Positions 19,246 through 22,008 of a stretch of DNA of 35,428 bases are shown piece after piece. Location of the stretch: positions 1 through 35,428 of the forward strand of contig CALGDE010000063.1 of assembly GCA_937883785.1 (NCBI GenBank), in the 5' to 3' direction. Positions within the stretch are counted from its first letter, which is position 1; every line of letters starts with the position of its first letter. Made by a program: the position numbers and the translations under genes. The notes under the pieces are model-generated. The model was given only the letters and a program-made list of their open reading frames with translations. It did not search any database and was not told the DNA's origin. The stretch is from an uncultured cyanobacterium. Its GTDB lineage: Bacteria > Cyanobacteriota > Cyanobacteriia > CACIAM-69d.

Positions 19246-21896
19246 TTGGGATCAACGTAATTGACCCATGTCGCAAATGGCACCATAGGCACCATGGGCA
19301 ATAGGCAAATTAACCATTGATTCCAGGTTAAAGGTGCGGTCTCAAATAAAGTATTCATCACAGACCACTGGCTAAAGATGATTTGCAGGGCGATCGCCCC
19401 TCCAATCCCCAATAGCAGAAAGGGCGCATTCGCGATTGGGGCAGAGCGATGGCGCAGGCGACTTAATAGGCTTTTACCCAACTGGCTAATGCTCAGTAAA
19501 TACACGATCCGCGCTGCCACCAACGCCTGAATTGCCATTGTCCGGGATACGGTTACATCTCCCGTTGTTACCTCTGCCCACTCGAACAACCCGAAAATCA
19601 GCACCCAGTTAAACAAAGACACCAACAAGATTCGATTGAGCAATGGGCGCGTAATCAAAGGCTCTTTGGGGTGGCGCGGGGGACGTTGCATTACCCCTGG
19701 CGACTTTGGTTCAAAGGCTAGCGGCACGGTCATGGTTAGGGAATTAATCATATTGAGCCACAGCACCTGTAGGGACAAAATCGGTAAATCTCTGGCTAGT
19801 AGCGCGCTAATCAAAATGGTCATCGACTCCCCACCGTTGACGGGTAGCAGAAAGGCGATCGCCTTGCGCAGGTTTTGATAAACCGTTCGCCCTTCTTCCA
19901 CCGCCGCCTCAATGGACGCAAAATTATCGTCAGTCAGCAGCATATCCGAGGCTTCCCGAGCCACTTCTGTGCCGCCTTTACCCATCGCCACGCCGATATC
20001 TGCCTGTTTCAACGCCGGGGCATCATTCACCCCATCCCCGGTCATGGCCACAATCTCTCCCTTTGCCTGAAGTGCTTCCACTAGGCGTAGCTTCTGGGCG
20101 GGAGCCACTCGAGCAAAGACATCCCCCGCCTCCACCGCCTGGGTCAGTTGGGCTTGATCCATCTCCAGCAATGCCCGACCCTCGTAAGCCACCACCTGGT
20201 CTGCCCGCTGCAAATTCATCCGCTGGGCAATGGCTGTCGCGGTGGAAATATGGTCCCCCGTAATCATTTTGATTTGGATACCGGCATTCCGACAGGCTGC
20301 CACCGCCGCGATCGCCTCAGATCGGGGTGGGTCAATCATGCCCTGTAACCCCAGGAACACCAGTCCAGTGTCAATATCATCGTGCTCAAGGGCGGTGAGA
20401 TGGGAAGAAACCTCTTTGTAGGCAAAGCTCAATACTCGCAAAGCCTCCGCTGTCATGGTCTTTACCGCTTCCTGAATCGCCCCACGATTAACCGGTACGA
20501 TTTTGCCCTGGTGATCCATCATTTGAGTGCAGCGGCGTAAAACGGCCTCAACGGACCCCTTAACGTAAATGGTGCGCGTTTTCCCACCGTGTAAGGTCCC
20601 CATGTATTGGTACTGAGACTCGAAGGGAATGGAATCTAAACGAGGTTGAGTAACCGTAAGCTCGGACGGTCTCAGGCTTGACTTGGCCGCCGCTGCCAGC
20701 AGCGCCCCCTCTGTGGGATCCCCCACCACTGTCCACTGCCCGTCCTCCAGTTTCAGCTGGGCGTCGTTACAAATCGCCCCCGCAGTTAAACATTCCTGTA
20801 ACGCATGGGATAGATCTTCTTTGCCAAGGTTTTCTTGTCCGAGATTTCCGAGGTGGAGACTGTCCCGTGGGTGATCGTCCAGCGCCATAATCTCCCCTTG
20901 AGGACTGTATCCACTGCCGCTGATTTGATACTGCTGTCCCCCCGCATAGATGGACTGTACCGTCATTTGATTTTCAGTGAGGGTGCCGGTTTTGTCAGAG
21001 CAAATCACTGTGGCACTTCCCAGTGCTTCTACCGCCGGCAGCTTCCGAATAATGGCGTGACGCTGAGCCATACGGTTCACACCGATCGCCAAAGTGATGG
21101 TAACCACCGCCGGTAAGCCCTCTGGAATAGCGCTTACTGCAAGGGCCACCGCCGCTTCAAACATGTAATCCCAGGATTCGCCCTGCCCTAGCCCCACAGC
21201 GAAGGTAAGGGTGGCCAACGTCAAAATGACGTAAAGCAGAATACGACTAAATTTTGCAAATTTGCGAGTCAGCGGCGTCGTCAAACTCACCCGCTGTTCC
21301 ATCGCCTGAGAAATTTTGCCCACCTCAGTGTCCTCGGCGATGCTGACCACCAATCCCCGCCCTTGCCCAAAGGTGACAAAGCTGCCCGCGTAGGCCATAT
21401 TGGTGCGCTCCGCTAAGGGGGTTTCGGAAGGCAGGGGATGAGTCGCTTTGTCGATGGGTAGCGATTCCCCGGTTAAGGCGGATTCATCCACCTGTAAATT
21501 GCGTGTTTTGAATAATCTCAAGTCCGCCGGAACCTTATCCCCGGACCCCAGCAGCACAATATCCCCCTTAACCAAATCGCGAGACGGCACCTGTAGGGTT
21601 TGTCCGCCTCGCAATACCGTTGTTTCTGTGGTTACCGCTTTTGCCAGGGATGCGATCGCCCCCTCCGCTTTGGCTTCTTGCACGTAGCCGATGATGGCGT
21701 TGAGAACGGTAACGCCCCAAATAACCGACGCATTGGTCCAAGATCCTAGAGACGCCTTAACTGCTCCGGCAATCAACAAAATATAAAGCAGCGGCTGATT
21801 AAACTGTAGGGCAAACTTCAGCCAGGCAGGCTTGCCCGGTTTAACAGGCAGCTCATTCCATCCGTCGGTTGCATGCATGACGATGATCCACAGCAT
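19242..21896 (-). CDS. P-type cation-transporting ATPase, main frame (5' end shifted)
   Basis: An 884-aa product carrying nearly all of a type-II (PMA1/Ca-ATPase-like) pump of the inner membrane. It has the first transmembrane pair after WNELPVKPGKPAWLKF, the actuator motif ALTGESLPID, the M4 motif AIPEGLPAVV, the phosphorylation site CSDKTGTLTENQM, MITGDHIS and AMTGDGVNDAPALKQADIG, and a C-terminal group of helices ending WVNYVDPN. The PEGLP motif suggests Ca2+, Na+ or Mn2+, not heavy metals. The ORF opens with MLWIIVMHA, which is not the family N-terminus. The missing segment is in another frame just upstream, separated by a 4-bp duplication. Reinitiation at ATG 21896 or 21878 could still make a nearly complete pump. 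The stop codon (19242-19244) lies inside MITE copy B. Confidence 0.88.
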   Translation of the reverse strand: MLWIIVMHATDGWNELPVKPGKPAWLKFALQFNQPLLYILLIAGAVKASLGSWTNASVIWGVTVLNAIIGYVQEAKAEGAIASLAKAVTTETTVLRGGQTLQVPSRDLVKGDIVLLGSGDKVPADLRLFKTRNLQVDESALTGESLPIDKATHPLPSETPLAERTNMAYAGSFVTFGQGRGLVVSIAEDTEVGKISQAMEQRVSLTTPLTRKFAKFSRILLYVILTLATLTFAVGLGQGESWDYMFEAAVALAVSAIPEGLPAVVTITLAIGVNRMAQRHAIIRKLPAVEALGSATVICSDKTGTLTENQMTVQSIYAGGQQYQISGSGYSPQGEIMALDDHPRDSLHLGNLGQENLGKEDLSHALQECLTAGAICNDAQLKLEDGQWTVVGDPTEGALLAAAAKSSLRPSELTVTQPRLDSIPFESQYQYMGTLHGGKTRTIYVKGSVEAVLRRCTQMMDHQGKIVPVNRGAIQEAVKTMTAEALRVLSFAYKEVSSHLTALEHDDIDTGLVFLGLQGMIDPPRSEAIAAVAACRNAGIQIKMITGDHISTATAIAQRMNLQRADQVVAYEGRALLEMDQAQLTQAVEAGDVFARVAPAQKLRLVEALQAKGEIVAMTGDGVNDAPALKQADIGVAMGKGGTEVAREASDMLLTDDNFASIEAAVEEGRTVYQNLRKAIAFLLPVNGGESMTILISALLARDLPILSLQVLWLNMINSLTMTVPLAFEPKSPGVMQRPPRHPKEPLITRPLLNRILLVSLFNWVLIFGLFEWAEVTTGDVTVSRTMAIQALVAARIVYLLSISQLGKSLLSRLRHRSAPIANAPFLLLGIGGAIALQIIFSQWSVMNTLFETAPLTWNQWLICLLPMVPMVPFATWVNYVDPN

Positions 21897-22008
21897 CGCT
21901 GGTTAGCCCCTGCTCTAAATCGCTATCTACCCTGCGAACAGTTTTGGCAATGTCGACGCTGTGAAAACAATCAGACTCAGACGCGGGTCTTATTGAGGCT
22001 AGGGACAT
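21853..22008 (-). pseudogene. Frameshifted N-terminal piece of the P-type ATPase
   Basis: From ATG 22008 a 51-codon frame runs to TGA at 21853-21855. It contains VDSDLEQGLTSDAVDHRHA, the typical cation-ATPase N-terminal domain (the DLxxGLTxxEVxxR pattern), which should run directly into TDGWNELPVKPG of the main frame. The frames differ by one base. The junction is GCATGCAT (21871-21878); removing one GCAT unit fuses them into a continuous 920-aa protein of normal length. GGAA lies about 8 nt before the ATG. This is either a true recent frameshift mutation, an expressed +1 frameshift, or an assembly error. Confidence 0.85.

Follow-up and report, generated by a model that had tools for sequence, protein, structure and literature searches.

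A recent tandem duplication of four base pairs has probably split the gene of a type II P-type cation ATPase near its 5' end in one cyanobacterial lineage, and is likely to have inactivated it. The explanation is ordinary: a single recent frameshift mutation, or else an error in the assembly. The window analysed here is a whole contig (35,428 nucleotides, without any N) of a draft genome of 4.84 Mb in 167 contigs from an uncultured cyanobacterium, and the site of the frameshift lies well inside it.

Two frames of one pump gene

A single P-type (type II) cation ATPase is encoded in two pieces, a frame of 51 codons and one of 884 codons (Table 1), which share 44 nt and meet out of register at CATGCATGCA. 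This tandem tract, flanked on the minus strand by CGT and ACC, is 10 nt long and comprises 2.5 units; on the plus strand GCATGCAT occupies positions 21871-21878. Removal of one four-base unit yields an open protein of 920 amino acids with no internal stops. Since the body frame is open only from 21902 onwards, ATG 21896 is its earliest possible start. The sequence-only reading had described the locus in the same way: its coordinates and frames, the placement of the repeat, the two internal ATGs, the length of the overlap and the continuous protein obtained by dropping one GCAT were all reproduced.

Table 1. Positions of the two frames, the junction tract and the internal start codons in the window
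Feature	Position	Strand	Remarks
N-terminal fragment ORF, 51 aa	22008-21853	minus	ATG at 22008
Body ORF, 884 aa, type II P-type cation ATPase	21896-19242	minus	intact motifs TGES, PEGLP, DKTGTLT, TGDGVND
Junction tract CATGCATGCA	21879-21870	minus	longer by one CATG (or GCAT) unit than in every aligned homologue
First internal ATG	21894..21896	minus	only upstream in-frame start for the body frame; SD-like AGGGG upstream, -5.7 kcal/mol
Second internal ATG	21876..21878	minus	in-frame, within the duplicated tract; weak SD, -3.1 kcal/mol

The domain content assigns the gene to the type II (SERCA/PMR1-like) P-type cation ATPases. The body carries the E1-E2_ATPase, Cation_ATPase, Hydrolase and Cation_ATPase_C domains, and its catalytic motifs, which are invariant or almost so across the homologue alignment, occupy residues 142-145 (TGES), 258-262 (PEGLP, in M4), 301-307 (DKTGTLT) and 619-625 (TGDGVND) of the 884-aa ORF. 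The closest entries in the PDB are the Ca2+ pump lmo0841 of Listeria and SPCA1/SERCA. The body aligns over nearly its full length to type II P-type Ca2+ ATPases (LMCA1/lmo0841, SERCA, SPCA1/PMR1), with all catalytic motifs present. The closest homologue, that of Nodosilinea sp. LEGE 07088 (L002; 84% identical), is intact and aligns to SERCA from SERCA residue 4-5 onwards, and SPCA1a and SERCA match its predicted fold. The window copy differs from these pumps in the split at its 5' end and in scores that fall short of the NCBIfam equivalog cut-offs for Ca2+, Mg2+, H+ and K+/Na+ pumps (best TIGR01522, 609.6 against a cut-off of 798.3), and for this reason the ion was left unassigned. Immediately upstream (22230-24557), and on the strand of the ATPase, lies the gene of an RTX-type protein of 775 aa, glycine-rich and with calcium-binding nonapeptide repeats; it and the ATPase possibly form a calcium-related pairing.

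The Pfam domain Cation_ATPase_N is complete only when both frames are joined. The body alone matches profile positions 32-68 of 69 with 38.2 bits, against positions 1-68 and 68.7 bits for the joined reading, and the intact Nodosilinea homologue scores slightly below the latter, at 65.1 bits. Residues 15-45 of the 51-aa ORF make up the first half of the domain and are followed by six out-of-frame residues, CNRRME, and the stop. The predicted structure of the Nodosilinea protein has N-terminal helices at residues 20-26 and 37-47 (moderate confidence, mean pLDDT 66), and by this model the frameshift would fall where the second helix ends.

The insertion relative to homologous loci

The strong evidence for an insertion is the comparison with homologues rather than the repeat itself. 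In the DNA alignment a gap of 4 nt falls exactly at the tract in L002, L079, L003, L005, L006 and L008: the window has CGT[CATG]CATGCAACC where the Nodosilinea sequence has CGC----TATGAAACC. The compared set comprises 99 homologous loci, namely 97 open loci, one that starts at a contig end (L072) and one from a metagenome assembly whose in-frame stop lies elsewhere than at the junction (L070). Ninety-seven of the 98 assessable loci thus run from N-terminal domain to body without a break, and the split of the window gene was found in none of the approximately 98. The alignment upholds the claim, made from the sequence, of a 4-bp duplication that puts the N-terminus of the pump out of frame; the same reading had named homologues with the same split as evidence to the contrary, and the loci compared hold no such case. 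A disrupting indel absent from intact orthologs is what distinguishes a recent pseudogene or frameshift mutant, and the window gene resembles strain-specific pseudogenes created by a single short tandem duplication in having one indel, an otherwise intact frame and intact orthologs elsewhere. The possibility of internal initiation is its sole difference from them.

Taken by itself, a four-base unit repeated in tandem over 8 bases is nothing unusual: the ATPase gene contains three others, and the genome is not enriched in them. In the genome sample 6430 tandems of 4-bp units were counted, somewhat below the approximately 8071 that 4-mer frequencies predict, and the 8-mers of the tract occur six times on both strands, about as often as the Markov estimate of 2-5. 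Together with its context, the junction tract occurs once in the genome. That the altered junction sequence had been copied from another place in the genome was considered and rejected, as GATCATCGTCATGC is found at this site only. Tandem Repeats Finder reported a single array for the window, a short 16-base repeat of 2.1 copies at 14837-14870. Replication slippage is the probable cause of the duplication: CATGCA has CA at both of its ends, and if one CA slipped onto the other during replication, CATG would be duplicated and CATGCATGCA produced.

Both parts of the gene bear the marks of constraint. Relative to the Nodosilinea homologue, the body shows a dN of 0.092 and a dS of 1.37, which indicates strong purifying selection, and the N-terminal codons show a pN of 0.24 and a pS of 0.88 (pN/pS 0.27). 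The low ratio in the N-terminus together with the constrained body suggests that, until a recent time, the two parts were evolving as a single protein; the two halves thus appear, from these substitution patterns, to have been constrained in their own frames for nearly all the time since the divergence from the Nodosilinea homologue. That the N-terminal part scores like an intact homologue likewise implies a recent event, or an assembly error. The N-terminus of the window copy is the most divergent among 51 homologues, and three near-invariant residues are altered beside the junction (A41D, Y44H and E45A), so that the split could be older than "recent". We rejected N-terminal decay as proof of an old split, in view of the low pN/pS, the high Pfam score and a direction test in which the N-terminal excess of change over the body was not significant (p = 0.67). 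The divergence gives only a hint of some relaxation.

Mutation, assembly error and other readings of the split

Among the options put forward in the sequence-only reading, a recent mutation is the best supported, and an assembly error is unlikely though far from negligible. Under such an error the organism would carry one CATG unit and a normal pump of 920 aa, in keeping with the selection that appears to have acted on both the body and the N-terminal domain up to now, with the draft state of the assembly and with the runs of N that occur in sampled contigs. The position of the site in the interior of an N-free contig and the four-base, non-homopolymeric unit argue against it; an indel of such a unit is not known as the usual error type of any common sequencing platform. 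We screened approximately 984 kb of the window genome for frameshifts by comparison with a second genome of the family, of which 1.45 Mb were used. An initial screen of 404 conserved stretches returned one spurious candidate (L171), which corresponds to the antisense of another gene plus a tRNA. As this screen would miss short N-terminal shifts, a more sensitive second one was applied to the ends of 243 stretches, with the ATPase as a positive control. The ATPase was recovered (score 102 against 18), along with only three further candidates, all from a single query: L123, a TPR-repeat protein in which matches in another register are expected, and L119 and L172, judged spurious alongside it. 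No other true frameshift was found in the approximately 240 conserved genes sampled, and a general proneness of the assembly to frameshifts was rejected, all other candidates having been judged spurious. The rarity of frameshifts in the assembly favours a real mutation, short of proof, and we take the assembled sequence to be correct.

Should the mutation be real, translation from ATG 22008 would terminate after 51 residues, and the 884-residue body could be made only from an internal start, at ATG 21896 or 21878. Such a product would lack approximately 40 conserved residues, which pack in the actuator domain of related pumps, and with their loss the gene is most likely inactive or strongly impaired, at best encoding an N-truncated accessory pump. 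A functional pump translated from either internal ATG, perhaps coupled to the short upstream frame, is improbable. The intact body, the overlap of the frames, the AGGGG string before ATG 21896 and the exceptional divergence of the N-terminal residues are consistent with it, but all assessable homologues keep the N-terminal domain, and truncation would remove the first predicted helix of the N-terminus (20-26 in the Nodosilinea protein) and most of the second (37-47), both of which align with the beginning of SERCA and SPCA1. The string itself, 11 nt upstream of the ATG, is the coding sequence of EQGL and is present in the Nodosilinea gene too, and its pairing energy of -5.7 kcal/mol lies inside the random range (5% quantile -7.1). 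Of the coupled reinitiation suggested from the sequence, the start at ATG 21896 with its AGGGG stands as feasible; the string belongs to shared coding sequence, and the product would be without most of the N-terminal domain. It is very doubtful that the split has been retained in the species with an N-truncated enzyme made from an internal ATG, possibly coupled to the 51-aa frame; were it so, a type II P-ATPase would be working with the N-terminal portion of the actuator domain missing. Published work on type II pumps with N-terminal deletions was searched and yielded nothing directly usable.

The same reading had also raised a contingency switch, in which phase varies by gain and loss of CATG units. 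Each gain or loss of a four-base unit would shift the frame, and the tract resembles the tetranucleotide loci of Haemophilus influenzae in having a four-base unit within the 5' coding part, but the survey of that species counted a tetranucleotide tract only at three units or more (PMC2651432). Contingency loci usually have many such units, in numbers that vary among isolates. The window tract, with 2.5 units, falls below the survey's threshold, no homologue carries an array, and there is no clear enrichment of the tract in the genome, which makes a switch extremely unlikely. Programmed +1 ribosomal frameshifting, proposed there as well, can practically be dismissed: a +1 shift within the overlap would give a near-normal protein, but conservation of the overlap and of a shift site among orthologs is replaced by continuity in 97 of 98 loci, none of which uses a shift, a CUU-UGA-C-like site is absent by inspection, no slippery, coupling or prfB-like signal is evident at the junction, and the shift would be needed upstream of the invariant G-N-L residues.

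Distribution of the pump among cyanobacteria

An ortholog of the ATPase is absent from all five other genomes of the family (G001-G005), in which its neighbours are found, MTAP in five and polyphosphate kinase in four. In the same-genus genome the MTAP contig ends close by, as inferred from the short flank of that locus (L247), which weakens the absence there. The ortholog appears interrupted in three cyanobacterial genomes: by an in-frame stop with a split (G036:C51:4408-6782), by a match that stops near residue 393, with a stop (G033:C32:5390-6508), and by a large internal gap (G048:C77:1433-2648). These interrupted-looking copies suggest repeated independent loss. Taken together with the absence of the ortholog in the family, the interrupted or partial copies elsewhere indicate that loss of the ATPase seems to be tolerated, and the ATPase is a patchy, accessory gene in cyanobacteria.

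For annotation, the gene should be marked as frameshifted, or the assembly checked, and the 884-aa frame should not be entered as a pump whose short N-terminus is novel. Provided that the mutation is genuine, the four-base-pair duplication would be one example of how an accessory ion pump of patchy distribution among cyanobacteria is lost.
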